In this document: positions 460 to 24,853 of the stretch, one piece after another
Position numbering within the stretch: position 1 is the first letter of the stretch
How the letters are laid out: each line of letters opens with the position of its first letter
From: Lachnospira multipara LB2003
Lineage (GTDB): Bacteria > Bacillota > Clostridia > Lachnospirales > Lachnospiraceae
NCBI RefSeq assembly: GCF_000702205.1
Contig: NZ_KL370871.1
Coordinates: forward strand, 248,001-312,000
Reading direction: 5' to 3'
Length of the DNA stretch: 64,000 bases
The notes under the pieces: model-generated
The model's database searches: none
Told to the model about the DNA's origin: nothing
The model's input: only the letters and a program-made list of their open reading frames with translations
Translations under genes and position numbers: made by a program

Positions 460-3400
460 TTAATACATAACTTCATCATCTACTAATATTACTAACTCCG
501 ATTGTGCTCTTGTATAAGCAATGTACTTCTCATTCTTAGACATTTTATTTGGAAGAACAAAAACCTTATCAAATTCTATGCCCTTAACTTGTTCAACTGT
601 CATAAATGATATTATACCCTTACCTGTACTTTCTTCTGATATTCTATTTAATTCTTTCAAATCTTTCTTTGAAAAAACATAATTTTTATCAAGCTTTCTA
701 GAAACTATAATAGCTATTCTAGAATCATCATATGACATATCTTTAATTGCATCTTTTAATCGTTTTAAATTAAGTTCACTTACCACTGCACCATCAACAC
801 CAGTTTGTTGTACTGACATATCAAAATTCTTATTACAGAATTTAGTAATTTGATTTGTATTTCTATAATTTTCATTGAGCACAAACATATTTGCTTCATA
901 TTTGTTTTTTAATTCAGACCAATCCGTTATCCCTCTTTCTTTAAATATACATTGATTTATATCTCCATATATATTCAAATATGGTTTTTTCTTGTTCATT
1001 GACATAATAAGTTTAATTTCATTTACAGCAAGGTCCTGACCTTCATCAATAGAGATAAACTCATAACTACCATATGTCTTATTAAAGTATTTCTTACATA
1101 GATACAAACGTACATATAAATCATATCTATGCAATCCACCCTTTAATTCTACTTTGTTTTCTTCTCTAAACTTTCTGCTTGCCTTTAAGAAAATGTTATT
1201 AAATGTTTTCTTAACCTGCCAATCAAGCGACTCTTTATATAGCTTATTTATTCTCTCATATAACTCCTCACTTTTTTCGTTTTCTTTTAGATTAGCTAGT
1301 TTATTTGATATTTTCTCTATTCTAGTTTTACAAGCGTTCAACTCCTTAGTTCTTCTGTCTAACCTTTTACTTAGGTTTTCACAGTCTTTAACTAGTTTTA
1401 AAGCGTCTAACATAGTAACACATATAGCTGATATTTCATCTAGTGCTTTTGATTCATAGTCATAATTAAGCATTGTTACATATTGTTTTTTTACATTATC
1501 TAATTTCTTTAATTCATTAAGATTCTCGTCAATTTTTTCTTGAATACGCTGTATCTTTCTTGCTCTACCAATGTTAATAAATGCGCTTTTTTCTTTCTCA
1601 ACTCTGGTGTTTAATTCTGCAATTGTATTATTAATCTTTTCTTCTTCTATTTGATTCTCATTTATTTTCTCAATAATTACATTTTTAATTTTATCTGGTA
1701 ATTCTTGAATACTTGTTACATATTCTTCATTAGATTTTAAATAGGCTTCTTCCCTAGCTTTTAAATTTATCTTTTCCTGTCTAAGTTTTAAGGTCTCATC
1801 TTCAATATTTTGCTTATTAATTTCAATAAGGTTTTTATATCCTTCTACTTTCATCCTGAAATTAAAAGCATATGTAAATTCATTTTCATCATTTAGCCCT
1901 TTTACTGCTTTTCCAAACTCGACAGATATCTCCTGTAGGTCCAAAAATTTCTTTTTTCTTTTTTCTATCTCCTTTTTATATGCATTGTCTAAATCCTTTA
2001 AAAATGTATCTGAATATACATATTCAACGAATTTTGATGATTGTTTCATATCCTCATCAACTTTTTTAATTGCTAAGAAAGCAGTGTCATATTTTCCTAA
2101 AAAGTACTTATAATACTGTTCAATAGACATTCTCTCAATCCCACTTAACTGCAATTCGTCTGCTATGCCTCTAATATGCAGATTAAAAGTTTCATTAGGT
2201 GTTAATATCACATATTTATCAGCATCTATTTCTGGATGTCTATATATTAAGGAGGAAAGTCTGTGAAGTAAAACCATTGTTTTACCTGAACCTGCACAAC
2301 CTTGTACAATAATATTTTTAAAATAAGATTCATCTACAATAGAATTCTGATTTTCTTGTATAGTTGCAATAATATCCACAAGATTTCTTTGTTTCTTTCT
2401 TATTGCTAACACGTTTCTTAAATATGGATCCGTAATACCTTTCTTAAATATAATATCTTCATCACTTTTCAAATTATTATAGCCATACAATTTTGCATCA
2501 TAAATATCAAACTCTCTTGAAAGTTTAATAGAATACTCTATTCCATTTCTTTCCACTTTACGAGTTTGCACATTAACCAATTCTCTACCAAAAGGACTCA
2601 TAAATGAAATTACTTTTTTCTCACCATTTAATACAACATCTTTTGCTCCTAAATAAAAAACTTTCGAATCGCCATCTTCACTTTCTATCTCAACTCTATA
2701 TCTATAAGGCTTTGGCATATAACTGTATAATAAATCCAATTCACCCTCATACTTTCTCTTACTATTAGATTTAGCGTATGTTAACGAATCATCATAGCCA
2801 CCTGAAAATGTAGCATACTGACTTACATAATCATTCTCACTTTTAATATCATCTATACGATTTTCAAGCTCATTTTCTAAACCTTCTAAATGTTTCTTTT
2901 CTTCATTAAACACTTCACCAGATGTGATATTATAACTACCATCTAAAACATCAACTACTATTGAAACATCTGGACGTCCAATATTATAGATTGAATCATA
3001 ATCTAATTGACTAATATAAAACTTCTCACAATCTCTACAATATGAAGCCTCAAAAGCATAACTCTTCTTTGTATCACCTTTTCTTACAATAAAAAATGCA
3101 ATTATGCATTCTTCATTAAAATGTGATTCATGATTACAATATGCCCCTTCTGATACAACAACAATATCATTTTCAGTTAGCCAAATTACATCCTCAGGAT
3201 ACTTAACCGTACTTTTCTTTACTTTTCCGTTCTCAACAACAAAATTCAAAATATAGTTCTTTTGATTATCTCTATCTTCCTTATAAGTTCTTTGCTTTTG
3301 TACTACTAACTCTGGTGGAGTAATTCCTAAATTATGACATTTATCTTGAATGTCTAGAGCTATAGAACGTCTTACAAATATCTTTCTACACTTAGGACAA

Positions 3401-4188
3401 AGGTAAACAACAAATTCAAGTCCTTCAGTATTCTTTTTATATTCACAAGGTAATTTCATTAGTTTCACATTATCATCAGAGCATGTGGGATTATCTTCTA
3501 TCCATTCTGATGCAACATATATAATAGAATCTTGATTTAAAACTTCTGGCTTTAGATTCGAATTTAGAAATCTATTTGTCTCCTCTAAGGAATATATTCT
3601 TACCTCATATCCCATTTTTTCTATATTGTCTTTTACAATAGCTACATCCTTTTCTTTTAAATAAAGCCTTTTGCATTTAGGACATACTAATGGAGCAACT
3701 CCATAAACAGACTTACCATTTTTATATCTAAGATTAATCTTTTCTAAATTCATAGAATGAATTAAACAATAATCCACAGAGTTTTCAATTGTAAAAGTTT
3801 CAAACGGAATTAATTCTTTATCCTCATACATTTTAAAATCTTTAATTTCACTATATGGATTATTAGAAAAATCTTCTTGATTATTTTCAATAATATTTTC
3901 TAATTCTAGTTCTTCATCAATGCTTACTTCTAAATTAGTCTTTTCAATTTCAGGAAAATCTTCTTCTGAAAAAATCGAATCATCATTTTCTACATCTATT
4001 TCTTCAGAGATTTCACTTTCATTAATTTGTGACTCATAATTTAAAGCAGCACTTAAATCAGGACGAGATAAAATTATCTCTTCCTGTCTCTCTTTTGATA
4101 ACCCATTAAAGTAATTAATAAACTCTTCAGGTATATTATTTACCTCAAAATTATCTATGTCTCTTTGTGTGAAAAAAAATAATCCCAT
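460..4188 (-). CDS. UvrD/Rep-type superfamily 1 helicase with N-terminal zinc ribbons
   Basis: A 1,242-residue SF1 helicase, third gene of a candidate defence operon. Residues 1-120 are acidic. Three zinc-ribbon-like repeats follow, with CPKC at 169-172, CPKC at 264-267 and CxxC at 384-387, each preceded by a further Cys or His. The helicase core starts with Walker A GCAGSGKT (630-637), is split by about 350 residues of predicted coiled coil, and resumes with DEGQD (1048-1052), GDINQ, the ENYRNT motif and YTRAQSELVIL near the C-terminus. This order is that of UvrD/Rep ATP-dependent DNA translocases. Its ribosome site AAGGTG overlaps the stop codon of the GHKL gene nine bases upstream, so translation is probably coupled. 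Helicase assignment is firm; a role in immunity is inferred from its operon partners. Confidence 0.88.
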   Translation of the reverse strand: MGLFFFTQRDIDNFEVNNIPEEFINYFNGLSKERQEEIILSRPDLSAALNYESQINESEISEEIDVENDDSIFSEEDFPEIEKTNLEVSIDEELELENIIENNQEDFSNNPYSEIKDFKMYEDKELIPFETFTIENSVDYCLIHSMNLEKINLRYKNGKSVYGVAPLVCPKCKRLYLKEKDVAIVKDNIEKMGYEVRIYSLEETNRFLNSNLKPEVLNQDSIIYVASEWIEDNPTCSDDNVKLMKLPCEYKKNTEGLEFVVYLCPKCRKIFVRRSIALDIQDKCHNLGITPPELVVQKQRTYKEDRDNQKNYILNFVVENGKVKKSTVKYPEDVIWLTENDIVVVSEGAYCNHESHFNEECIIAFFIVRKGDTKKSYAFEASYCRDCEKFYISQLDYDSIYNIGRPDVSIVVDVLDGSYNITSGEVFNEEKKHLEGLENELENRIDDIKSENDYVSQYATFSGGYDDSLTYAKSNSKRKYEGELDLLYSYMPKPYRYRVEIESEDGDSKVFYLGAKDVVLNGEKKVISFMSPFGRELVNVQTRKVERNGIEYSIKLSREFDIYDAKLYGYNNLKSDEDIIFKKGITDPYLRNVLAIRKKQRNLVDIIATIQENQNSIVDESYFKNIIVQGCAGSGKTMVLLHRLSSLIYRHPEIDADKYVILTPNETFNLHIRGIADELQLSGIERMSIEQYYKYFLGKYDTAFLAIKKVDEDMKQSSKFVEYVYSDTFLKDLDNAYKKEIEKRKKKFLDLQEISVEFGKAVKGLNDENEFTYAFNFRMKVEGYKNLIEINKQNIEDETLKLRQEKINLKAREEAYLKSNEEYVTSIQELPDKIKNVIIEKINENQIEEEKINNTIAELNTRVEKEKSAFINIGRARKIQRIQEKIDENLNELKKLDNVKKQYVTMLNYDYESKALDEISAICVTMLDALKLVKDCENLSKRLDRRTKELNACKTRIEKISNKLANLKENEKSEELYERINKLYKESLDWQVKKTFNNIFLKASRKFREENKVELKGGLHRYDLYVRLYLCKKYFNKTYGSYEFISIDEGQDLAVNEIKLIMSMNKKKPYLNIYGDINQCIFKERGITDWSELKNKYEANMFVLNENYRNTNQITKFCNKNFDMSVQQTGVDGAVVSELNLKRLKDAIKDMSYDDSRIAIIVSRKLDKNYVFSKKDLKELNRISEESTGKGIISFMTVEQVKGIEFDKVFVLPNKMSKNEKYIAYTRAQSELVILVDDEVMY

Positions 4189-4197
4189 AGCAACACC

Positions 4198-7100
4198 TTA
4201 CTCTCCTGCATATATTTCAAATGCTCTCTTTAAAGCTAGAAAATGTCTTGGACTATATTTAATAACAACTTCTTCTCCCTCAGGGATTTCCACCTTTATT
4301 TTTATCGGTTCATCAGAATCTACTTCAATTTGAGTCTGCATAACTTGATCATATAATCCTGATATAACCTTAGAACAATAATTATATTTAGCTGCACAAT
4401 TAGGACATAAACTTAACGAATTCCAACCCAAATTAAAACTCTTAGTCATATGCTCTTGTAAATCATTTGCTTTTACTATATTAATAGCTTCAAAATACGA
4501 ATCTCCATTCCACTTCTTTATTCTTGTTTTACATATCTGACAATATCCTCCATATTCACTTTCTAAGAAAAGTTTTTCTTCTTTATTGGATTCTCTTCTT
4601 GTAAATACAACGCCTCTGCCAAGATAGTCCTCATTTTTCATGGAATTCAAAAATTCTTTTTCCAAATTAGCTTCACGCTTTTTTAAGCCTCGCTCTGAAA
4701 TACTTCTAACTTCAAAATCTGTTTCATCATTATAAACATCCCTTTGAGACTTATCTGCTTGTCCTAATAAGCTTTTTAAATCGGATTCCTTTTTTGCTTT
4801 TGCATCTCTTTTAGCCTTAGCTTTATTATACGTTTGCAACATTTCTTTTATTTGGCTACCATTATCATTCATAATCATTTCTATAAATTGCTTACTCGTT
4901 TCATTATCAATACCAAATGCCTTAAATGACTGTACTAATAATTCGCTATCTTTTTTAAAAGGTAATACGTCAATTATTCTTTTATAACGTGAATATTCAT
5001 CTGCTATTTCTTCTTTGTTAAGTTCTCCAGGTGAATATATTCTATCTTCATCCTCTTTATATATCCATTTTTCTCTACTAAGAATTAAACCCACTGCTGA
5101 ATATATTTCCATGGCATCAACATTTCTACCGTCATAATTTCTATCATCAGCTCCAAGTAACCTATCTTTTATTAAAAAATCATTAGTGTGGGCATTTAAA
5201 AATTCAAATATTAGTTTTGACTTTTCTTTAGTCATGTTCTTAAACAGCAACTCAAATTGATCATAATATACATTCCAAAAATCATTAGAAATATAATTCT
5301 TATACAAAATCTTAGTTTGTATTTCTCTCATTTTTCCCGCACCATCATATTGTCTTACTAATCTTAAATAATGTTCTCTATCAATTTCTGTTTTTTTCAG
5401 ACCTTCAGAACAACCCAATGTTTTAAAAAAATTGTCATCCAAATTTACTTCTAACACAGTATCATCAAAATATTTATTAGATAAATATTTTATATCCTGT
5501 AAATCTGATAAAAGCTTATATCCCGTTCTAACATCTGTGGACTTTATATGAAGTTCCTCCGGTTTAAACCACTCATTCCCATCAGTTACAATATAATATT
5601 CTTTTATTTTTTCTTTAAGTCCAATATTGGTTTTTAAAGCCTCTTTTATAGTTGCTAAATCGTTTATATTTTCCTTTATGTGATTAGTTGTATTAAAAGA
5701 TACACTTCTAGAGAGATATTTAGGTAGTATTTTATCTACAACCTCACGCTCTATATTGTATTCAGGAATGTGTAACACTCTATTGTAAAAATTGTAAACA
5801 ATATCATTATCAAGAAACTTGCTATCAATTCTATATTTAGCTATCTCAGGATTATTTAAATACACCTGATACTTGCCTTCTTTTTGTGCTGTAATTTGCT
5901 CACCTGCGCTTGTTCTGACAAAAGGGATACTTAGCGCATTAATTGAAATTGATTTATTAGCTGTTTTATAGCACATATTCTCTATGGATGAAAACAGATT
6001 TTCAAACCAAGATACATTTTTAGTTTTTAAAAATATAGCATTTAAGTTTACTACTAATTCCTTCCAACTACATACTCTAAATTTAAAATTTGTATTCAAA
6101 TATTCTCTAAATTCTGAATACCTGCTACTAGTTATATCTTTAGCCATCCAATACAAATCTCTATCTCCAAGTAAAAAATGCATATCTTCATCATCAAATA
6201 CATCTACTATGCTACGCGATTCAGGTACCAAGATTTCTTTTATATTTTTGAATACGCCTTCTTTATTTGTTGGTAAAATTCTTTCTCCTGATTGAATAAA
6301 ATCGACACTATTTACATAAATGTCATAAAACAAATCTTCTTCATCATACTTATATATTGGATAAACTTTATTTAAAACGTCTAGATTTAAATATCCATTA
6401 TCTTTCATCCAAATAAAAGCAAATTGAATTAATCTAGATAAATTTTTTACAAACATTTTGTTTCTGTTTGCTGCTTGTGTTACTGCTATTAAGTTATCTC
6501 TTGCTGGTGTTGTATCAAATGGTGCATGAATAATAAAATTTTGATGGGACTCCTTAGCTGTAGGAAAATAAGCATAAATTAAGCTATTTCTTATTTCCTT
6601 AATTTCCTTACCATCTACACTAAATAAAATTGTTACAGCTTCTTTTTCCGCATCTGTAAATAATAAATAATTCTTTTCGTCCTCTTCATTCTTTTTACCA
6701 TCTACATTTTCTGTACGAATATTGACATCGAAAACATTTCCACTGCCATCCTTTTGTCTCATTTCCTTATCAACATTAATTTCCTCTTCTGTACCATCTA
6801 TAATTATATGTATCTCTCTAATATTTTTTAAAATCAATAAGCTATCAGAATTCATTTTCTTCTTTAAACCTTTATGAATTTCTTCATAACAAATTTCTTT
6901 AGGTACGCTTGCTTTATTAAAAGGCAACACGATTTTAGTTTCTAAGTCATCTAAATTAGGATCTGCTTCCACCTCATAAGGTTTTACATATTCCTCAATT
7001 CTAAAATGATACTTAGATGAATAAATTACTGGTGTTTCTGTATAACCATATACCGCTTTAAACCCTATTCCAAAGTGTCCAATCTTAGTGCCTTCATCAC

Positions 7101-7371
7101 TGTAATCTTCTTTTTTTGTACTAGCCATCATACCGCAGATACCAATAACATCTTTTTCATTAAATGGGCGACCATCATGTCTAATCTCAAATCTATCCTT
7201 AAACAAAATGAATTTAATTTTACTAGCCATTGCATCTTCAGCATTTTGTAAAATTTCAAATAAAAAATGAGTTCTATCACTATATTGGTTTGCAGCCAAA
7301 GAAAGAGTATCACTCGCTTTTCTTCCAAAATCTAATATATTATCTTTTCTTAATTGTTCATAAAAATCCAT
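4198..7371 (-). CDS. Sacsin/Hsp90-like GHKL ATPase with C-terminal HNH-like cysteine cluster
   Basis: A large protein (about 1,057 residues) with the Bergerat ATP fold at its N-terminus. Numbering from an upstream ATG at 7383, the N-box ILQNAEDA lies near residue 44-51, DGRPF near 70 and the glycine loop GHFGIGFKAVYG at 102-113, as in the sacsin/Hsp90-like group. A long all-new middle part follows. At residues 948-1003 is CxxC, FEAINIV, GW and CPNC...C, the layout of an HNH/treble-clef domain but without the usual paired histidines. I chose 7371 because GGAG sits six bases before it; the ATG at 7383 has no good site. Hsp90-type ATPases of this class occur in prokaryotic conflict systems, but the substrate here is unknown. 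Confidence 0.82.
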   Translation of the reverse strand: MDFYEQLRKDNILDFGRKASDTLSLAANQYSDRTHFLFEILQNAEDAMASKIKFILFKDRFEIRHDGRPFNEKDVIGICGMMASTKKEDYSDEGTKIGHFGIGFKAVYGYTETPVIYSSKYHFRIEEYVKPYEVEADPNLDDLETKIVLPFNKASVPKEICYEEIHKGLKKKMNSDSLLILKNIREIHIIIDGTEEEINVDKEMRQKDGSGNVFDVNIRTENVDGKKNEEDEKNYLLFTDAEKEAVTILFSVDGKEIKEIRNSLIYAYFPTAKESHQNFIIHAPFDTTPARDNLIAVTQAANRNKMFVKNLSRLIQFAFIWMKDNGYLNLDVLNKVYPIYKYDEEDLFYDIYVNSVDFIQSGERILPTNKEGVFKNIKEILVPESRSIVDVFDDEDMHFLLGDRDLYWMAKDITSSRYSEFREYLNTNFKFRVCSWKELVVNLNAIFLKTKNVSWFENLFSSIENMCYKTANKSISINALSIPFVRTSAGEQITAQKEGKYQVYLNNPEIAKYRIDSKFLDNDIVYNFYNRVLHIPEYNIEREVVDKILPKYLSRSVSFNTTNHIKENINDLATIKEALKTNIGLKEKIKEYYIVTDGNEWFKPEELHIKSTDVRTGYKLLSDLQDIKYLSNKYFDDTVLEVNLDDNFFKTLGCSEGLKKTEIDREHYLRLVRQYDGAGKMREIQTKILYKNYISNDFWNVYYDQFELLFKNMTKEKSKLIFEFLNAHTNDFLIKDRLLGADDRNYDGRNVDAMEIYSAVGLILSREKWIYKEDEDRIYSPGELNKEEIADEYSRYKRIIDVLPFKKDSELLVQSFKAFGIDNETSKQFIEMIMNDNGSQIKEMLQTYNKAKAKRDAKAKKESDLKSLLGQADKSQRDVYNDETDFEVRSISERGLKKREANLEKEFLNSMKNEDYLGRGVVFTRRESNKEEKLFLESEYGGYCQICKTRIKKWNGDSYFEAINIVKANDLQEHMTKSFNLGWNSLSLCPNCAAKYNYCSKVISGLYDQVMQTQIEVDSDEPIKIKVEIPEGEEVVIKYSPRHFLALKRAFEIYAGE

Positions 7372-7392
7372 AGACAACTCCATAATCTTTTA

Positions 7393-10300
7393 TCATTTAC
7401 TATTCTCAACTCTTAAGATTCCATAACATAATACTTCCGAAAATATATCCGCTTTTTTCTTCTTTTCTTGTAATTCATCATAAAGAAACTTGTAATCATT
7501 CTTTGCCTTATTTATTTTTCCTTCTGTTAATCTTAAATATACTTCACCAGAATTGTTAGAATTTAATTTTTGATCCTCAAGCATTGCAATACGTGCCATA
7601 GTGCTAGTATAAAGACTTGTTTCTCTATACTTGATTCTTTCCTCTGTTTTTGCTTTATTTTTCTCTATTTCATTTTTCCAAATATCATGACTTTTCTCTT
7701 CTAATTCTTTCCAATCAAATGGATCTTCATACTCTTCATTATCATCCTCACAATTTTTTAAAAAGCCAAATATTGCATTGTCTAAATCAGAGTTTTCCGA
7801 TAAAACTCTAATCTCTATATCTTTCTTGTCGCTAACTATTACCCATTGATATAGAATAAAATGATAAACACCCTCTTTTATATCATCAGTTGTTACTTTA
7901 ATACGACAAATAGTTTTCTTATTGCTTTCTAAAAATTCTGCTGCCTGTCTAACCATAGGATGAGTTGTATTAATCAAATTAAGATTCATATCCTCTAAAC
8001 CAGCTTCTGAACTAAAAGTAACCTTCCAAAAAGTCCCTTCACCTTTTAAATACTTCTCATATGCTCTTACCAGTTTATTCTTTTTATAATGTCTGCCTTT
8101 AAAATCATCTAATAATACTTTTCTTGCTTCCTGTGATAATCTAAGGTTTTTTATATTCTTTTCACCTAAAAGATACTCTGCTGGTTTTTCTAAAATTTCA
8201 TTTAAAAATTCCTCTACTAAATTTTCTATCATATCTTGTGATAGCCAATAATTCTTAGCATTATCTAATTTTTTATCAAATTCTGCACTATCTATATTTA
8301 TTCCAAAAAGCTCCCTTTGTTTTTCTTCTAATTTTTCTTCTTCCTGTATAAAACGAACCCTGTTGTCTGTCATTTGCTGTAGGGCATCTCTTCTTTCTTC
8401 GTCTGACATATCAAAATTAGTAGCTATTTTATTTATTTCCTTAGTAACACCACCTAATATATCTTCACAATCACCTATTGATTCTTTAAATACTCCCACT
8501 CTTAATAAACATCTATCATATATGTCTGCATCAATTGTTCCTGGAGTTATTAGATTATAAATATTAACTTTCTCACTTGTTTGACCATTTCTATCAATAC
8601 GACCAATTCTCTGTTCTATTCTCATAGGATTCCAAGGCAAATCATAATTAATCATGCAATCACAAAATTGGTAATCTAATCCTTCTGTACCAACTTCAGA
8701 AAATAACATAATATCTATAGCGTTTGAAGAACTAATATCTGTAATTGATGGATCAAATCTTTCTCTTAATTCTAGTCTATCACTATCTTTTACTCCGCCA
8801 TGAATTAAACCTACTCTGTAGCCATCACTAATTAATCTCTTATAAAGATAATTCAATGTATGTCTAAAGCTACTAAAAATCATTACCTTATTTTTTTCAG
8901 ATTGCTGTTTCTTTTCGATAATTTGTAGCATTGCATCATATTTAGGATCTTCTTCCGGTAAATTCTTAGCTAAAGTAATAATCTGATTTATTCTTGTATT
9001 AATTTCTAAGTCACTTAAAATTGAAGAATTATCAACAGAATCATAGCCTTCATCAAATTCAAAAATTAATTCATTCTCATGCCTTCTTAATAACTCTTCA
9101 AGCATGGGAACAAGACCAAATAAGCAACTTGCTACTTGGCGTCGTATAGTTGTCATCATAAACATCGTATTCTCTGTCATATGTATTATTGATAACATTT
9201 CATGTATTATTTTCAAAATTGCATCATGTAACATTTTTTGTGCAGATGTAAATTGAATTTCAACTGTTTGCGAATCTCTCGTTGTATAACGTCCAATATC
9301 CCTTCTTCTCGTTCTATTAATAACATTTGAAAATGTATGCATATTTTCAACATCTGTTATTAACTTAACGGTATCTTCTATTTTAATTTCATTACTTTTT
9401 AATTTTGATATAATGTCCTTTACATCAGGGTTATCACTAAATATTTTTCTTCCCCAAGCGGTATTGCACGCTTTATTTATATTTTCTAGTGCTTCTTCCT
9501 GCCAATTATCTCCTCTAGCTCTTATTATTCTTGATGCAGAATTTATAAATACGTTTGGTTCTGACATTTGTTGAAAAGTATTTTTGTCAATCACATAATC
9601 TGGTCTTAAAAGTTTTAAAAGTGTATATAAATCATCTGCTTCAAGCTGTACTGGTGTAGCTGTAAGGAATACTACTGCCTCCGCATTATCTACAAAGGTT
9701 TCAACTGCTTTATAAGCATAAGTTTCTGTATTTCTAATATGATGCGCCTCATCAACTATTACTAAATCAAATTTAGGTGGATCAACTTCTAATAATGCTT
9801 TTGTCTTTCTTTTATATTCATCTGAACCCTCTACTTTATTTTTATCAAATAAAGAAAAAGGAATAATTGCTTTACTATATTTTTCCGGCCATTCTCCCTC
9901 TAAATCCATTTGACTAAGGCAAAACTTAAATTTATCACCATCTATAGGTTCAAATGATTCATCAAATCTTTTCATTTCCAATTCCCACTTACGTTCAGCT
10001 ATAAGTGGACGCGGACATATAATCAAAACTGAATTAATATTACTTCTTGCCTCAAGTTCTTTTAAAATCAATCCTGCTTCAATTGTTTTTCCAACACCTA
10101 CGCCATCAGCAATTAATAAACGAGGTCTATCTGAATTTATAAATTTTAAAACAGGTCTAAACTGATGTGGTATTATATTTATTTTTGCACTGTTAAGCGA
10201 ATAAAGCGAAGAAACCACTGGATTTCTAATTAAAGACGCAGTTATCCTAGCATTAAAGGTATTAAAACCTACATAGTCTTTTTTTGACTCTAAATCTATC

Positions 10301-10455
10301 TTCTCTAATTGGGATTCATAATAAGTTTTATCACCATTCTTGGTATAAACTGTATACTTTGTTTCTTTTTGATCCTGAAAGATTCCAATTACAGCACCTT
10401 CAATGCTATTATCCGAAATAAGTGTCACCTTATCTCCCATTTTAAAATTTGCCAT
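7393..10455 (-). CDS. RapA/SNF2-type superfamily 2 helicase
   Basis: A 1,020-residue SF2 ATPase that opens the candidate defence operon. Residues 1-55 look like a small SH3/Tudor-like barrel. The motor has PHQFRP (Q-like motif, 96-101), Walker A GVGVGKT (118-124), DEAHH (235-239), TATP (265-268), then the second RecA-like half with MIFSSF, HGG, EGLDYQ and QRIGRIDRNGQ (615-625). The closest family pattern is RapA/HepA and the SNF2-like helicases used in several phage-defence operons. The C-terminal 350 residues are charged and unassigned. The start has AAGGAG seven bases upstream. The stop is followed within 21 bases by the GHKL ATPase gene, so the two are one transcript. Confidence 0.88.
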   Translation of the reverse strand: MANFKMGDKVTLISDNSIEGAVIGIFQDQKETKYTVYTKNGDKTYYESQLEKIDLESKKDYVGFNTFNARITASLIRNPVVSSLYSLNSAKINIIPHQFRPVLKFINSDRPRLLIADGVGVGKTIEAGLILKELEARSNINSVLIICPRPLIAERKWELEMKRFDESFEPIDGDKFKFCLSQMDLEGEWPEKYSKAIIPFSLFDKNKVEGSDEYKRKTKALLEVDPPKFDLVIVDEAHHIRNTETYAYKAVETFVDNAEAVVFLTATPVQLEADDLYTLLKLLRPDYVIDKNTFQQMSEPNVFINSASRIIRARGDNWQEEALENINKACNTAWGRKIFSDNPDVKDIISKLKSNEIKIEDTVKLITDVENMHTFSNVINRTRRRDIGRYTTRDSQTVEIQFTSAQKMLHDAILKIIHEMLSIIHMTENTMFMMTTIRRQVASCLFGLVPMLEELLRRHENELIFEFDEGYDSVDNSSILSDLEINTRINQIITLAKNLPEEDPKYDAMLQIIEKKQQSEKNKVMIFSSFRHTLNYLYKRLISDGYRVGLIHGGVKDSDRLELRERFDPSITDISSSNAIDIMLFSEVGTEGLDYQFCDCMINYDLPWNPMRIEQRIGRIDRNGQTSEKVNIYNLITPGTIDADIYDRCLLRVGVFKESIGDCEDILGGVTKEINKIATNFDMSDEERRDALQQMTDNRVRFIQEEEKLEEKQRELFGINIDSAEFDKKLDNAKNYWLSQDMIENLVEEFLNEILEKPAEYLLGEKNIKNLRLSQEARKVLLDDFKGRHYKKNKLVRAYEKYLKGEGTFWKVTFSSEAGLEDMNLNLINTTHPMVRQAAEFLESNKKTICRIKVTTDDIKEGVYHFILYQWVIVSDKKDIEIRVLSENSDLDNAIFGFLKNCEDDNEEYEDPFDWKELEEKSHDIWKNEIEKNKAKTEERIKYRETSLYTSTMARIAMLEDQKLNSNNSGEVYLRLTEGKINKAKNDYKFLYDELQEKKKKADIFSEVLCYGILRVENSK

Positions 10456-10522
10456 AAATGCTCCTTAATTAGTATAAATACAAGATTTCAATATTCTATT
10501 ATCACGAATGTTATATATACTA

Positions 10523-10551
10523 ATTATATAGTTTTTAACCTTTTCTTTCAA
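10523..10551 (-). promoter_or_regulatory. Sigma-A-type promoter for the helicase/GHKL/helicase operon
   Basis: On the minus strand TTGAAA (10546-10551) is separated by 17 bases from a perfect TATAAT (10523-10528). It lies about 70 bases before the SNF2-type helicase start and is the only strong promoter seen for the whole operon. Confidence 0.75.
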
Positions 10552-10585
10552 CTTTTAAGATGGAATACTTGCTTTCATTAAACAC

Positions 10586-10612
10586 AAAAAGACCTAGTCT
10601 CTCGACTAGGTC
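10586..10612 (-). terminator. Rho-independent terminator of the surface-protein gene
   Basis: Perfect 9-bp stem (GACCTAGTC with GACTAGGTC, loop of four) followed on the minus strand by TTTTT. It closes the 10654-12651 gene and insulates the helicase operon promoter just downstream. Confidence 0.85.
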
Positions 10613-10653
10613 CTCATTTGCTTATTTATAAATTAATTATGTATTTCTTCTTC

Positions 10654-12651
10654 CTATATTTCTTTTATCTCATGTCTCTTAGTAGCCACTATTACTAGTG
10701 CTGATAGGATTAGAACTAAGACAACTAGTGCCATCTGCTGTTTATCGCCTGTATTGCTTGTGTCTGCTGCGACTTCGCCAGCATCTTCTATTACTGGACT
10801 CTTTACCTCATCTGATAGTGCTACTGTGTCTTTTGTTGTTGGGCTTGGAAGGACTGTTGCTGTGTCTGCTGCAATCTCACCCTGCTCTGTTGTATCCTGC
10901 TCTTTTGTAGTCTGCTCTGTTTCGGATTGCTTAGTATCATCCTTTGTTGCTTCTTCTTCAGGCTTGATATCAGCTGGGTTCTCTTCTTTTGCAACTGGAT
11001 CTAGTTTTAAATAAAGACCTGGATCTAGAATAACTCCAGCTGTGTAATCAGGTGAATTTGGTGTCTTTAAATAATAGCCTCCATAATAGGACATTTCAGT
11101 AGCTGCTAATAAGAAATTTCCGCCCTTATTTAATTTTTCAATACTATCTTCCTTTGCCTTTAATCTAAAGCTAAGCTTTTTTTGATACTTATTAAAACCA
11201 ATATCATAACTAAATTTAGAATCATTTACTTTGATTATACCTGGAGTACTAACATCATCAATTTTTTCTGAGCCCTCTACTAATTCAAAATCTTCTCCAA
11301 TTATTTCTTTAAGATTTAAATTAATGCCTAAATATTTTTCCATATCTAAAGGATTTATCATATATGTAACATCATATGTGTAATCCTCGCCCTCCACAGG
11401 AGTATAATATCCGTAAAATTCAAATATATTCTGGGCAATTTGTATATTTACACCCTCTGGTTTTTCCTCTGGTTTATTATAAACTACAACTACTTTGTTC
11501 TCGCTACCGCTTTGGGCATAGCCTGTGTAATTGTCTGATTTTGTAATTTCAACCTTTCCTGTATATCCTTCAGGTCGATTATAATCAATGTCATTATTAG
11601 GATCAGCTAAATTATCATTAAATGGAAGCTTATCACCAACATAAATCATATTTGATTTTGCATTAATGAAACGCAACTCACCATTATCATTATAGTTATA
11701 CACAATTGTATAACCAGTATATTCCCTATACTTATAAACTACGTTAACCACATTTTTATCATCATCTTCTACAACCTCAATGGTTCTGACATTATTGTCA
11801 TCAATAAATCCAGTATCTTGATATCCATAAGGAACAAATTTTCCACTATACTCTATATCAGATTTATTAATAGTTGATCCAACTTTCATATTAGCGTAAG
11901 TTGTATCATCTGTTCCTAGATAATACTTATAGTTTCCATCTTCATCCTTTTCATCACTTACCTTATCTTTGTAATAATTAACAACTACTGTCCTAAAAGC
12001 TGGTAGATTAATTTTATTAACTGTATAATTTTTTCCTACCACATTAATTACAGGAGTACCCACTGCATTTTCGTATGTATACCTATATGTCATATCATAA
12101 AAAATAGCAGTTTCACCACCTCTTAGCACTTTATCCATTGCAGAATCCTTTGCTTTTACTTGAAAGCTAAATCTTATTCTAGACGATTCATTAATTTTAA
12201 ATTTGCCCTGTAAACGGTTGCTACTTGATGCTGTAATACTACCAAGGTTTTCTGAAATAATAGTAGCTCCATTGATTTTTTCAGAGCCATTTACAAACTC
12301 AAAATTCTCATTAATTTTCCCTTTAAATATCACATTAAAATCTGTAAACTTTGCTATATCTAAAGCATTGGCCACGACATTAATTTCATATGTATAATCA
12401 TCTTCATTTACTCCAGTTACATATGAACTAAATTCAAAATAATTCTTTACATTAACAATCTCTTCTCCAAAAAGCCCTATATTATCATCACCTGAATTAA
12501 TATCAGTCATTGGATAAAGCTTTCCTATATCTTGCTCAGTTGGTGCTTTAGCTGATACATCTGTCTTAAACTCTACTAATTGTGACATGACAATAATTAA
12601 TACTAACCCTAAGGTCACTAACTGCCTAAACTTTCCCATTAGTTTATTCAT
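10654..12651 (-). CDS. Cell-wall-anchored surface protein with duplicated ectodomain
   Basis: A 665-residue exported protein. Residues 1-35 form a signal peptide. Two homologous ectodomains of about 140 residues follow, at roughly 60-215 and 405-545; both share the series FEF...YTY...NPL/NAL-D..KF/KY...F.LV/FVNGSEKI. Between them lie MucBP-like strands (VVVNYYKD, GYTIVYNYND). The C-terminus has a Thr/Glu/Pro-rich wall spacer, then SNTGD, a hydrophobic helix and a short basic tail, which is the layout of a sortase substrate, although the motif departs from LPXTG. The start has GGAGGAG in front. It has its own promoter and terminator. An adhesin role is likely from family pattern, but the ligand is unknown. 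Confidence 0.75.
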   Translation of the reverse strand: MNKLMGKFRQLVTLGLVLIIVMSQLVEFKTDVSAKAPTEQDIGKLYPMTDINSGDDNIGLFGEEIVNVKNYFEFSSYVTGVNEDDYTYEINVVANALDIAKFTDFNVIFKGKINENFEFVNGSEKINGATIISENLGSITASSSNRLQGKFKINESSRIRFSFQVKAKDSAMDKVLRGGETAIFYDMTYRYTYENAVGTPVINVVGKNYTVNKINLPAFRTVVVNYYKDKVSDEKDEDGNYKYYLGTDDTTYANMKVGSTINKSDIEYSGKFVPYGYQDTGFIDDNNVRTIEVVEDDDKNVVNVVYKYREYTGYTIVYNYNDNGELRFINAKSNMIYVGDKLPFNDNLADPNNDIDYNRPEGYTGKVEITKSDNYTGYAQSGSENKVVVVYNKPEEKPEGVNIQIAQNIFEFYGYYTPVEGEDYTYDVTYMINPLDMEKYLGINLNLKEIIGEDFELVEGSEKIDDVSTPGIIKVNDSKFSYDIGFNKYQKKLSFRLKAKEDSIEKLNKGGNFLLAATEMSYYGGYYLKTPNSPDYTAGVILDPGLYLKLDPVAKEENPADIKPEEEATKDDTKQSETEQTTKEQDTTEQGEIAADTATVLPSPTTKDTVALSDEVKSPVIEDAGEVAADTSNTGDKQQMALVVLVLILSALVIVATKRHEIKEI

Positions 12652-12684
12652 TTTCTCTCCTCCATACTCTTACATTAAAGATTT

Positions 12685-12722
12685 TTTGCGAACTATACTA
12701 AAATCGTATTTTATTTCGCAAA
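12685..12722 (-). promoter_or_regulatory. Promoter embedded in an 8-bp inverted repeat
   Basis: TTTGCGAA and TTCGCAAA form a perfect inverted repeat 22 bases apart, 34 bases upstream of the surface-protein start. Read on the minus strand the first arm supplies a -35 (TTGCGA), followed after 18 bases by a TATAGT -10, so a repressor bound to the arms would cover the promoter. Operator function is inferred. Confidence 0.45.
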
Positions 12723-12837
12723 GCTTTTCTTATATTACCCCCTCTCATCCCCCTATCCACCCCTCTTTTGGTGGGTATTTTGTTGAATAATGCAGGTGAG
12801 TTGTTTTTATTAAAGTGCAATATTTTTTAGTATAAAT

Positions 12838-12863
12838 AAAAAGCCCCATACTTTAGTATGGGG
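12838..12863 (-). terminator. Rho-independent terminator of the PNPOx-like gene
   Basis: Perfect 8-bp stem CCCCATAC/GTATGGGG with a four-base loop, followed on the minus strand by TTTTT. Confidence 0.85.
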
Positions 12864-12934
12864 TCTTCAGCTCTAATATATTCTATTATATGCTCACTCT
12901 ATTAAATACTAATCTTATTGCTGTTTATCTTTGA

Positions 12935-13336
12935 TTAGAATTCAATTGTTTCTGGTTCTCTAGTAAATGAACAAAATGTAGCTTTTGCATTTTTAAAATA
13001 TAACATCTGCATGTTATCATCATCTGCACTATACATTTTCTTAAGACTTGGCATTGCTTCAAGCATTGCTTCCTTTACTTCTTTTGAATCGTCATTTACT
13101 AATTCTCCACAAACTCTAATCCATTCGCCACCCTTAAAAGCTGTAAGTTCTACCTTAGGATTAGCTGCAATCTGCTTTGAAACGTCCTTAACCTTACCTG
13201 TCTGGATGTAAAGCTTATCATTACATAATAAAGCTGTTCCAAAAGGACGCACTCTTGGCTGATTGCCTTCTACTGTTGCTAAATAATACGTCTTTGCTTC
13301 TGTTAAAAATTGGCATACTCTCTCGATATTCTGCAT
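12935..13336 (-). CDS. Pyridoxamine 5'-phosphate oxidase-like flavin-binding protein
   Basis: A small (133-residue) split-barrel protein of the PNPOx-like class. The family pattern is seen in YYLATVEGNQPRVRPFG near the N-terminus, LYIQTGK in the middle and the closing FCSFTREPETIEF. Members bind FMN or F420 and usually act as single-domain reductases or oxidases of unknown substrate; true pyridoxine synthesis is not implied, as PLP is made here by PdxST. I start at the ATG preceded by GGAG nine bases away; another ATG five codons upstream (13351) lacks a clear ribosome site. Single-gene unit with its own terminator. Confidence 0.8.
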   Translation of the reverse strand: MQNIERVCQFLTEAKTYYLATVEGNQPRVRPFGTALLCNDKLYIQTGKVKDVSKQIAANPKVELTAFKGGEWIRVCGELVNDDSKEVKEAMLEAMPSLKKMYSADDDNMQMLYFKNAKATFCSFTREPETIEF

Positions 13337-13463
13337 ATTTGTTATCTCCATTTCTTAATTAAATTCATTGTGCATATTTAGATTGTACTCAACTATGTTT
13401 ATAATAATACCGTAATTTTTAGAATACAAGGGATGAGGAAAAATTTAGATTTTGTTAAGACTA

Positions 13464-14427: not shown

Positions 14428-15195
14428 TCACTTGGTTCCCACAAGTAGCATAGATCCTCTTAGTCCGCAAAAATAGCCCTCGAACTTACTCATAAATCTA
14501 CCCTCATCTGTGCGTATTAGATGAACTTCTTCATAGCCATCCGCTCTTAATTTGTCCACCAATTTTTCTATGTCGCCGTATTTCGACTTGGTCATAATAT
14601 CATGAATTGCGAATTTGCCGCCCTTTTTCACAGTACGTAAACTCTCTAAGATAAGCTCCTGCTTGTTAAATCCAGAAATATTGCTGTATACGTAGTTACA
14701 CACAAGCCCGTCAAATACTTCATCTTCAAAATCAAGGCTAGATGCACTGCCTTGCTTAAATTCCACGTTGCCAACACCCTCAGCCTTGGCATTTTCTTCG
14801 CACAAAGCCTTTGAAAAAGCAGCGTATTCCTTGCCCCATCTATCAACACCAATAACTTTAGCATCTGGATTTTTCTTAGCCACTGCAATTGAAAGTGCAC
14901 CACTTCCAGCTCCAACTTCCAAAATCTGACCTTTCACCTCTCCTAAGCACTCTGCTGTCCCATCAATAATTCGTCTTGATAACTGCCTCTTCCCATCATA
15001 GGAAAAAGCCATGTACATAAAGGTTAACCTAAAGGTCGCAAATAGGAATAAAATGGACACAATTGCAAAAATCACAGTCAGCTCCACCATATCCTTCTTA
15101 TAACCTGCATATGTAAAATACGCCGCGATGACACTGGCTCCAAAAGACGAAAAAATCAACCTTTTAGGCACCCAATTTTCGTAATTTGCCTTCAT
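14428..15195 (-). CDS. Membrane-anchored class I SAM-dependent methyltransferase
   Basis: A 255-residue protein. Two hydrophobic helices occupy about residues 14-60, then a Rossmann methyltransferase domain with motif I ILEVGAGSGALSIAVA, an acidic end of strand 2 (VIGVDRWG), a motif-II-like SSLDFEDEVFDGLV and the KKGGKFAIHD strand. These residues bind S-adenosylmethionine. The methyl acceptor is unknown. The two-helix N-terminus recurs in Firmicutes methyltransferases and tethers the domain to the inner membrane face. Single gene, closed by the terminator at 14381-14408. Confidence 0.82.
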   Translation of the reverse strand: MKANYENWVPKRLIFSSFGASVIAAYFTYAGYKKDMVELTVIFAIVSILFLFATFRLTFMYMAFSYDGKRQLSRRIIDGTAECLGEVKGQILEVGAGSGALSIAVAKKNPDAKVIGVDRWGKEYAAFSKALCEENAKAEGVGNVEFKQGSASSLDFEDEVFDGLVCNYVYSNISGFNKQELILESLRTVKKGGKFAIHDIMTKSKYGDIEKLVDKLRADGYEEVHLIRTDEGRFMSKFEGYFCGLRGSMLLVGTK

Positions 15196-22987: not shown

Positions 22988-24853
22988 CTATTTTAGACAC
23001 TCTCTTAAATAATTAGCTAAGTTCTTGTCAGTACAATAAACATAACAACCCTTCATTCCTCGTGTCATAAGGGTTCTGTAGGTATTTTTTATAATCTCAT
23101 CTGCCTCAGATAAAGCTTTCTCTGGATTCTCCTTATAGAGCTTTTTAATACCCTTAAGAGATTGGTCAGTTGTGGCTCTCTTGGTAAAATCTGTGACTAT
23201 GTGCCCATTTTCATAACGCATATCATCACCAATAATTACGCCAACATAATCAAACTCAAGTCCCTGTGAAGTATGAATACAACCTACTTCATTAACTGAA
23301 GTGTCTGAAAGGGCAAATGGCTGAGAATCCGATAGATTCCAGCTCATCTCAAAATCGCCAATCTTGATATCATGCACGTTAGTATCTGCTTTACCATCTT
23401 TTAGCCATTCCCAACAATAGCCTGCAACCATACGAGCTCTATTGTGAGAATTTAAGTTCTTTTCTATGATAATATCTCTTACTTCATTAGGATCATCAAC
23501 GATTTGTATATCATACTCAATATCTTTCAAATCATGATTTGCTGTCTCTCTAATTTCTAGCACATCATCTAGCCAAGCAAGATAGCCATCTGAACCATTA
23601 CATCTAAACTGAGACAACAATTCCATTTCAAGAATTTCAGAATCTTCTTCGTCTGCCCATTTCTTGATTTCACCAATAGAACCAATATCACTTAAAGTAA
23701 CTCTCTGACTTTCATCTATAAAGAAAACGCTACATAAACTTGCATTTATAATTTCTTTAATCTGGTTCTCTCCCTTGTTATGGAATAAACCAGACTTCTC
23801 ATTAAGTCTATGGGCTTCGTCGCTAAGAATAACATCGATTACATTTTTATCAACATCAACATAAGAACCTGAACCCTTAAACATATTATTAATACTTGAT
23901 TTCTTAAAGCCTGTAAGTTTCTTAGAATAAACTTCTCTAGGCGCACTATTCTTAGAGGTATACTGAACAAACATACCTTCATTAGTTAGCTTTGCAAGCA
24001 AATTAATGGCTACAACAGTTTTTCCTGTGCCTGGACCACCCTTTACAACCACCGTACGTTTCTTTAAATCTGTCATACACTGCTTAGCCACCCTTAAGAT
24101 TTCCTCATACACAACTTTTTGCTCATCAAGCATAACAAATTCCTGATTGCCCTTTAACATACTATTTATCGTATCCTGAAGGCTTTTAGATGGTCTTATA
24201 CGTCCATTATCTATGTCGTATAGGACTTCTTTATTATCCCCTATCTTAACAGATTTTTTGATGAATTCTCTTAATTTATAGACTTCACCTCGACCAAAAA
24301 TCGGAGCATCCTCAACGTATTCTTTATATTGATTTTCCTCTAATTTTTCTGGATTGGATTTTCTATAATTATGCATAAATGCGCATGGATGAAGAATTAT
24401 GTTACCTTCCTGCACATTTTGATTATAATCATAAATCATAGCTGCATATGACCAAGCCTGATATGATGGATGAACTACCTTTCTTATGGCGCCTCCTGTA
24501 AAGGTCTCAACTAAAGCATCCTGCCCATTTACTGTATCTACCTTGTCCCACTGCTTTAACTCTATAATAATTACATTAGGATCTTTCTTCTCACCATATC
24601 CTGATATAATAAAATCAACTCTCTTTGAAGTTTGTGGAATATTATATTCTATAGCAATACCTGAGTTTTCTGGAATTGTGTCATCATTAAGCACTTTATA
24701 CATGTATTCTAATGAATTCTCCCAAGAACGAAATTCATTACGAGCTGTTTTTTTATGCATCTTGTTATAAATTGTCTCTTCAATTTCTTCTGCTATAGAG
24801 TCTTCTTCTACAGACCTTAAAAAATCTTTCTTTAAGCCAGAATAAACTAACAT
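22988..24853 (-). CDS. DUF2075 superfamily 1 helicase with N-terminal nuclease-like domain
   Basis: A 621-residue protein. Residues 40-110 resemble a PD-(D/E)XK core, with KRVDFIISG, then VIIIELKQWDKV. The ATPase follows: Walker A VVVKGGPGTGKTVVA near 270, VILSDEAHRLNEKSG, VFFIDESQRVTL, QFRCNGSDGYL, HTSQGLEFDYVGVI and YRTLMTRGMKGCYVYC at the end. This is the DUF2075 (Schlafen-like helicase) architecture, found in restriction-linked and stand-alone defence genes. Start supported by AAGGGAGG. It follows an SbcC/SbcD pair and leads into no further gene of the same type. Confidence 0.88.
   Translation of the reverse strand: MLVYSGLKKDFLRSVEEDSIAEEIEETIYNKMHKKTARNEFRSWENSLEYMYKVLNDDTIPENSGIAIEYNIPQTSKRVDFIISGYGEKKDPNVIIIELKQWDKVDTVNGQDALVETFTGGAIRKVVHPSYQAWSYAAMIYDYNQNVQEGNIILHPCAFMHNYRKSNPEKLEENQYKEYVEDAPIFGRGEVYKLREFIKKSVKIGDNKEVLYDIDNGRIRPSKSLQDTINSMLKGNQEFVMLDEQKVVYEEILRVAKQCMTDLKKRTVVVKGGPGTGKTVVAINLLAKLTNEGMFVQYTSKNSAPREVYSKKLTGFKKSSINNMFKGSGSYVDVDKNVIDVILSDEAHRLNEKSGLFHNKGENQIKEIINASLCSVFFIDESQRVTLSDIGSIGEIKKWADEEDSEILEMELLSQFRCNGSDGYLAWLDDVLEIRETANHDLKDIEYDIQIVDDPNEVRDIIIEKNLNSHNRARMVAGYCWEWLKDGKADTNVHDIKIGDFEMSWNLSDSQPFALSDTSVNEVGCIHTSQGLEFDYVGVIIGDDMRYENGHIVTDFTKRATTDQSLKGIKKLYKENPEKALSEADEIIKNTYRTLMTRGMKGCYVYCTDKNLANYLRECLK

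Follow-up and report, generated by a model that had tools for sequence, protein, structure and literature searches.

A conserved SNF2-GHKL pair with an added HelD-like motor: a candidate accessory defense operon in Lachnospira multipara

What do three long, closely spaced genes at one end of a stretch of the Lachnospira multipara LB2003 genome do together? The window, a stretch of 64,000 nucleotides (contig NZ_KL370871.1, positions 248,001 to 312,000), opens within a minus-strand operon whose genes are transcribed in the order SNF2 helicase (gene 1), GHKL ATPase (gene 2), and superfamily 1 (SF1) motor (gene 3). A sequence-only reading of this DNA had proposed a candidate undescribed defense system. 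On balance, and with modest confidence in the explanation as a whole, we favor an accessory system against phages or mobile elements, built around a conserved engine of two proteins; a defense function as such, predicted from the genomic context of relatives, appears very likely. The gene set, its synteny, the co-divergence of the first two proteins, the defense neighborhood of relatives, and the fold families were observed directly. Below, L numbers designate loci of relatives and G numbers genomes, the window genome being G000.

The three-gene operon is real and not a chance arrangement, because its gene order recurs elsewhere at 28 to 56% protein identity (97% in L015). The open reading frame (ORF) list, in which ORFs were called mechanically, confirmed all three large ORFs at the minus-strand places where they had been reported (Table 1). 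For gene 2, we prefer the start at 7371, which leaves gaps of 21 nucleotides between genes 1 and 2 and 9 nucleotides between genes 2 and 3, because a GGAG lies a few bases 5' of that ATG and because the L011 relative starts at the matching residue. The GHKL protein of Lachnospira multipara ATCC 19207 (locus L015) is 97% identical to that of the window, and the genomes are close; window positions 1706 to 10559 are 97.8% identical to genome G336 over an 8,854-column alignment. As for the single promoter that had been claimed, TTGAAA-17-TATAAT scores 11 of 12 consensus positions, the top promoter-like match in a 13-kb scan. Because promoter-like sites as a class are rarer in that scan than in shuffles (58 versus a mean of 79.8) and the best of them precedes gene 1, one promoter driving the operon is plausible, as judged by consensus matching only.

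The trio is accessory and patchily present. Within the family, 7 of 299 genomes match gene 2 and 2 of 299 match it over its full length, the window's own included. Three of the five genomes with a partial GHKL match (G061, G088, and G079; loci L005, L006, and L007/L010) have an SNF2 gene adjoining, and the short loci of G190 and G106 showed none next to GHKL. The gene 3 profile matches 22 of 397 genomes at 1e-20: three at E = 0 (G000, G336, and G047), two intermediate (G318 and G110), and 17 weak ones that resemble ordinary HelD. In a class search of 391 genomes, gene 3 was matched at 1e-35 in four (its own, G593, G719, and G782) and gene 2 at 1e-60 in three (its own, G499, and G682), with only the own genome in both lists; the large genome searches scored at most two candidates per genome, and such counts may be low. 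G008, a third genome of the genus Lachnospira, has no match to gene 2 or gene 3, and homologs of the genes flanking the trio lie there on different contigs. The full-length count for gene 2 and the E = 0 count for gene 3 speak for a non-housekeeping distribution.

Which part of the operon is conserved became apparent from a scan of 84,980 species, each represented by a single genome, which returned at least 464 gene 2 relatives, the best 80 of which were kept. Together with L013 and L095 these made 82 loci; 75 proteins of at least 800 residues were used for the GHKL tree, shorter or broken ones being dropped and the window being represented by L015. Nineteen of the 75 have an SNF2 gene within about 1.5 kb upstream (pairs), and six are full trios, with SNF2 upstream and a HelD-like gene downstream. 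The trio rows form one clade (SH-aLRT 99), to which a pair from Faecalibacterium and a faecal contig is sister. Five of the six trio rows are labeled Lachnospiraceae; Falcatimonas is labeled Clostridiaceae in the tree and belongs to the window's family in the 299-genome search. The pairs have far broader hosts, among them Chloroflexota, Nitrospirota, Thermodesulfobacteriota, Actinomycetota, Acidobacteriota, Bacteroidota, and Pseudomonadota. SNF2 and GHKL distances correlate across 24 pairs (r = 0.703), and none of 5,000 permutations, which ignore shared ancestry, was as high (maximum, 0.419). Co-occurrence of all three families, suggested earlier as a check, was thus found in six further syntenic loci of one GHKL clade, but the wider conserved core is only the SNF2-GHKL pair, and the HelD-like gene is a clade-specific addition. 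Scans of viral contigs gave no locus with a single protein as the query and none with the third protein; with the GHKL alignment they gave one, L095 (6330 to 13051), an HEPN-like SNF2 plus GHKL pair on an IMG/VR viral contig.

Defense models are frequent in the surroundings of these relatives. We compared 95 neighbor proteins (at most seven per locus, 150 to 1,300 residues) from 15 loci (4 trios and 11 pairs; the window, L011, and L015 not included) with 95 control proteins. At 1e-10, 123 PADLOC families were found among the neighbors versus 13 among the controls, a tally of families and not of matching proteins, and the enrichment near defense genes that the sequence-only reading had proposed to look for was thereby borne out in relatives. 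The neighbor families among the matches listed (25 of the 123) include type I restriction endonuclease, BrxL, PglZ, type IV restriction endonuclease, DpdF, Zac, and MADS models; those of the controls are 6 DinG, 3 viperin, 2 Leo, 1 DpdF, and 1 MADS model. Individual loci illustrate the pattern. In L020, a type IV restriction endonuclease is followed by BrxA-B-C-PglX-PglZ-BrxL, two same-strand ORFs without a PADLOC match, and then the trio. In the Faecalibacterium loci L164/L035, SNF2-GHKL follows BrxA, BrxC, PglX in two parts, and PglZ (BrxB was not identified), and the faecal contig L013 has the order PglX-PglZ-SNF2-GHKL. Pairs also lie beside HsdM and HsdS in L022, beside HsdR in L027, and beside both HsdR and an Mrr-type enzyme in L028, and in Falcatimonas (L011) a type I methylase lies downstream of the trio, with HsdS- and HsdR-like genes labeled by eye.

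The limits just given, on the permutation and on the PADLOC tally, weigh against this reading, as do several further points. The controls were taken from elsewhere in 13 of the genomes that supplied the neighbors, mostly at contig starts. Of their 107 proteins the first 95 were used, which removed L134 and all but one L133 protein; L122 was too short. The window locus stood outside the enrichment test, and ten proteins upstream of the trio have, by Pfam, a metabolic or transport-related look. An SNF2 partner is absent from 38 of the 75 GHKL relatives, nine more are cut by a contig end, and three have SNF2 downstream, in the reverse order; SNF2-GHKL gaps run from a 44-nucleotide overlap to 1,420 nucleotides and exceed 300 nucleotides in 5 of 18 measured pairs. 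The unity of the trio rests on seven loci of one clade, two of which (the window and L015) are near-identical. HelD-like proteins also occur in genomes where no sacsin-type GHKL protein was found (G318, G110, G593, and G782), and in G593 and G782 they lie among genes that, by eye, do not look like defense genes.

The composition of the proteins bears on what the operon might do. Gene 1 encodes an SNF2/RapA-type helicase of superfamily 2 (SF2), with PADLOC matches to DrmD (4.7e-106) and BrxH (7.1e-64), NCBIfam matches to DrmD (9e-92) and RapA (3e-58) that are both below cutoff, and a PDB match to RapA (8.3e-31). Its motifs include GVGVGKT, DEAH, TATPVQ, and RIGRIDR, and a Tudor-like N terminus may be expected from its family as described in the consulted text of PMC12839542. 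Thirteen of 24 tested SNF2 proteins carry an HEPN-like N-terminal extension with an Rx4H motif (RNxWAH), e.g., those of L013, L020, L022, L025, and L027; among the trios only L020 has it (one of six). The HEPN label comes from the Rx4H motif and from Pfam HEPN_Swt1, which was tried on L013 only and gave 20.5 bits against a cutoff of 27.5. An HEPN toxin is ruled out as the effector of the window operon, because the window SNF2 protein, compared with its relatives, has no N-terminal extension. HEPN-SNF2 helicase fusions and HEPN-paraMORC fusions were already mentioned in passages of PMC3710099, which covers part of this observation.

Gene 2 meets the curated sacsin models of Pfam (SACS, 9.8e-13, 48.9 bits, cutoff of 32.8) and NCBIfam (P_loop_sacsin, 81.2 bits, cutoff of 50) and matches PADLOC TmtA, for which no curated cutoff is given, at 1.8e-41 over residues 30 to 327 and at 8.8e-41 over residues 29 to 733. 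Its AlphaFold model (mean pLDDT of 80.8, pTM of 0.55) finds Hsp90, sacsin, MutL, and MORC2 as fold matches. The N box (QNAEDA) and G2 box (GHFGIGFK) are kept, and TPARDN is also present; the G1 box is altered, being H-[D/N/F]-G in all 31 aligned sequences. The earlier statement that the motifs are intact therefore holds for SF2 and SF1 but only partly for the Bergerat fold. At the C terminus, a profile matches the McrA HNH region (6ghc, 4e-7). Cys948 is present in 31 of 31 sequences, Cys951 and Cys993 are present in 30, and Cys996 is present in 21 (His in 9). A histidine after the second CxxC is absent in 31 of 31, as is any His at 997; four sequences have a His within 966 to 968 and two at 1001/1002, and the window protein is in neither group. 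An active HNH nuclease was rejected, the McrA-type catalytic histidines being lost at the positions where we take them to lie. Because the cysteines are kept and the histidines are lost, this region is read as a putative nucleic-acid-binding fold and not a nuclease.

The third gene had been called a UvrD helicase, an identity that we rejected for a HelD-like one. The best NCBIfam match is HelD_BACSU (1e-24, 86.5 bits), below its curated cutoff of 419. This threshold is strict: only 1 of 14 control genomes has a protein that reaches it, and none does in the window genome, where gene 3 itself scores highest against the model. By phmmer, gene 3 matches the PDB entry of Bacillus subtilis HelD at 2e-18, and for a model of residues 1 to 600 (mean pLDDT of 68.2, pTM of 0.37) Foldseek returns a single match under 0.001, HelD 6wvk, whose TM-scores are low (0.14/0.11). 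Gene 3 carries the motifs GCAGSGKT, SIDEGQD, NENYRNT, and IAYTRA, and three zinc ribbons, whose residues are invariant in all seven sequences, precede the motor. HelD has an arm, a 1A domain interrupted by a long insertion, and a 2A domain in one piece (PMC7749167, in the part consulted). Gene 3 residues 473 to 699 align to HelD 78 to 303 (the arm and 1A region), and the place of the clamp arm spans 344 residues between matched points in gene 3 versus 238 in HelD, the second point being weak (a 3.4-bit alignment near motif II). After the last matched point, 123 residues remain in gene 3 versus 156 in HelD, and for this reason there is no room for a 2B insertion. The HelD layout, with split 1A and continuous 2A, thus appears to be retained. 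A helix hairpin is predicted at 425 to 449 and 467 to 490, with Asp466 near its tip invariant in seven of seven sequences; it may be compared with the acidic tip of HelD (D56/D57, same portion of PMC7749167). The HelD anchor Trp137 aligns to Phe in gene 3, and none of the seven sequences has Trp there. As a separate observation, the HelD-like proteins of L016 (8653 to 14427) and L018 (13142 to 18616) have a macro domain after the motor.

How might such proteins act together? From its kinship with RapA, DrmD, and BrxHII, the SNF2 protein would move along double-stranded DNA, and translocation of this kind is probable. The GHKL dimer would act with it, closing as an ATP-gated clamp or switch, although we give the clamp role only an even chance, and the dead HNH zinc fold would bind and not cut nucleic acid. 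A HelD-like motor bearing zinc ribbons has joined them in one clade (Lachnospiraceae plus a Falcatimonas) and most likely provides arms that would pull proteins off invading DNA, RNA polymerase perhaps among them; that RNA polymerase itself is the target seems doubtful. Because no nuclease or DNA methylase was recognized in the three proteins, they would probably halt an invader by using ATP to strip or block its DNA, or would assist nucleases encoded nearby. As for the proposed switching of the GHKL protein between two translocases, nothing beyond co-occurrence favors it. The proposal of an undescribed defense system fares better, given the defense-rich context of relatives and the lack of a named match, but the metabolic look of the window's upstream genes speaks against it.

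Three other accounts have to be set against an accessory defense system on a two-protein engine. The operon might direct defense at transcription: the RapA-like and HelD-like motors, both related to factors that recycle RNA polymerase, would work on this enzyme where it sits on the invader's DNA, with the HelD-like arms opening or clearing it and the GHKL protein gating them. RNA polymerase is a serious candidate target, since gene 1 resembles and matches RapA and gene 3 resembles HelD, in apparent layout as well as in the predicted hairpin with its invariant aspartate; Foldseek also lists GreB (E of 0.017) for the gene 3 model. A simple HelD role is disfavored, however, because the anchor Trp is lost and the gene 3 model is weak, with residues 415 to 429 and the tip (459 to 464) at a pLDDT below 50 in addition to the low pTM and TM-scores. 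Moreover, the HelD score is far below cutoff, RapA-like helicases also serve BREX, DISARM, and ARMADA, and PMC12839542 likens the layout of BrxHII to RapA, with no claim of action on RNA polymerase in the text consulted. We therefore hold this account to be unlikely. A nuclease-free defense in which RapA- and HelD-kin motors, coupled by a sacsin-type clamp, recognize transcription complexes and strip them from invading DNA seems quite unlikely; if true, it would be immunity against transcription by mechanical force and not by cutting or modification.

The operon could instead serve BREX or restriction-modification systems as an accessory effector arm, one that needs a neighboring methylation system to tell self from non-self. 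The trio after a BREX set in L020, the pairs after PglZ in L035 and L013, and the type I and Mrr-type genes by L022, L027, L028, and L011 argue for this account. Against it, PglZ (PF08665) has no match in the window genome, and no DNA methylase was recognized in the ten upstream proteins (Pfam) or, by eye, in the downstream ORFs; window positions 14428 to 15195 encode a methyltransferase of another type. The window genome does hold two strong N6-methylase matches, unlinked to the trio, the nearest about 31 kb past the window end, and because of these a methylation link for the window trio is possible, a point that counts against the explanation we favor. All told, an effector arm of this kind is improbable. 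A general stress or DNA-repair operon is very unlikely: RapA, HelD, and Hsp90-like proteins do have housekeeping kin, and the window's upstream neighbors look metabolic, but presence among genomes is patchy, the neighborhood of relatives is rich in defense families, and one pair lies on a viral contig (L095).

A named system made up of these three genes did not emerge from PADLOC or family matches or from searches of the open-access literature, in agreement with the sequence-only reading, although likenesses to known systems are many. The operon shares a RapA/SNF2-type helicase (BrxHII) with BREX, just after whose genes the pair or trio of relatives lies in L035, L013, and L020; it differs in that its genome lacks PglZ. 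DrmD/RapA of DISARM is the best family match of gene 1, but the score is half the curated NCBIfam cutoff (309 versus 610 bits), and no other drm gene or methylase was recognized (four proteins and the downstream PLD-SF2 protein by PADLOC, ten upstream proteins by Pfam, and the rest downstream by eye). ARMADA type II likewise combines a RapA-like helicase with an SF1 helicase in one operon (PMC12458937, in the part consulted), but the trio has no YprA helicase, PglX-like methylase, or RelE-UvrD, and neither YprA nor a PglX-like protein was recognized among the scanned neighbors. Gabija differs in that the operon has no GajA match by PADLOC, in which GajB models reach gene 3 at only 1.2e-10. TmtA, which we take to be Tiamat, has a sacsin-type GHKL ATPase like gene 2, but the best match covers residues 30 to 327 and the matched models are 1,302 to 1,782 residues long. 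Tiamat is a single-gene system. Gene 3 has the arm, split 1A with its long insertion, and continuous 2A of HelD and differs by its added zinc ribbons, lost anchor Trp, and score far below the family cutoff. The sections consulted of PMC2292703 proposed restriction operons in which MORC/paraMORC GHKL ATPases adjoin SNF2 helicases, with HNH enzymes or methylases; gene 2 differs in being sacsin-type by curated models and in having its HNH fold fused, with the histidines lost. Defense by a GHKL protein plus a helicase is thus partly known in print from those sections. The 2026 BREX survey (PMC12839542) does not use the words GHKL, Hsp90, or sacsin in its main text, nor do GHKL and Hsp90 occur in the text consulted of PMC12458937.

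Other arrangements of GHKL genes also combine them with helicases. Within loci of up to 10 kb on each side, on either strand, the 38 GHKL rows without SNF2 have UvrD (23 rows), type III Mod (17), and a Res-type helicase (15), versus 1, 0, and 0 in the 19 pairs. L048 (7068 to 19688) has UvrD-GHKL-Mod-Res, and L052, L055, L070, L094, and others are similar members of its clade. In L158 (326 to 11999), a HelD-like gene shares an operon with HNH, a C5 methylase, DUF4420, Z1, and a protein with what may be a GHKL N box, possibly a second type of GHKL protein, which has no Pfam match. Because such UvrD-GHKL-Mod-Res loci and L158 exist besides SNF2-GHKL, a helicase plus a GHKL protein is a recurrent theme, as the same part of PMC2292703 proposed for MORC/paraMORC. 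L076, L079, and L087 encode giant GHKL proteins (1,507 to 1,529 residues) near RelE-UvrD, a YprA/DruE-like helicase, and a PglX-looking methylase (RelE and the methylase by eye) and resemble ARMADA with an added GHKL protein.

Close to the window trio, the second gene downstream, encoding a PLD-SF2 protein, is PADLOC mREase_IV, and relatives of this type IV enzyme occur close to some of the trios: in L015, in L018, and in L163, upstream of L020. An obligate fourth subunit it is unlikely to be, since G008 has a homolog and no match to gene 2 or 3; in L147 of G008 (10462 to 13417), the homolog is split over three ORFs, away from any trio. Elsewhere in the window, positions 22988 to 24853 encode a Schlafen group 3 helicase (PF09848, 3.7e-103), with HTH/M78 and DUF4417 proteins nearby, possibly a second mobile or defense patch.

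Table 1. Coordinates of the operon and of its sequence features in the window
Feature	Position	Strand	Basis
Gene 1, SNF2/RapA-type SF2 helicase, DrmD/BrxH-like, 1,020 residues	7393..10455	-	ORF list
Gene 2, sacsin-type GHKL ATPase, 1,057 residues	4198..7371	-	ORF list, start choice, Pfam/NCBIfam/PADLOC, fold
Gene 2, longer alternative from first ATG, 1,061 residues	4198..7383	-	ORF list
Gene 3, HelD-like SF1 motor with N-terminal zinc ribbons, 1,242 residues	460..4188	-	ORF list, NCBIfam, PDB, Foldseek
Promoter-like site TTGAAA-17-TATAAT ahead of gene 1	10523..10551	-	Consensus match only
Terminator-like hairpin ending the upstream gene	10588..10615	-	Consensus match only
Gene 1 Walker A, GVGVGKT	10084..10104	-	Motif search
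GHKL nucleotide-binding core (residues 30-125, 1,061-residue numbering): QNAEDA, GHFGIGFK, G1 altered to H-x-G	7009..7296	-	
McrA-like HNH zinc fold at GHKL C terminus (CxxC...CxxC), catalytic histidines replaced	4378..4542	-	
Three zinc ribbons of gene 3: C141/H144/C169/C172; C236/C264/C267; C351/H356/C384/C387	3028..3768	-	Invariant in 7/7

The operon links parts that were known separately: the RapA-like helicases of BREX, DISARM, and ARMADA; sacsin/TmtA-type GHKL ATPases; and HelD. Recurring near BREX and type I restriction genes, the broad SNF2-GHKL pair would amount to a portable module, one whose GHKL part goes unmentioned in the PMC12839542 main text. Should the HelD-like arm bind RNA polymerase, the added motor would mount a direct mechanical attack on the transcription of the invader, and the sacsin-type core may help to show the role of this ATPase fold in a tractable host.

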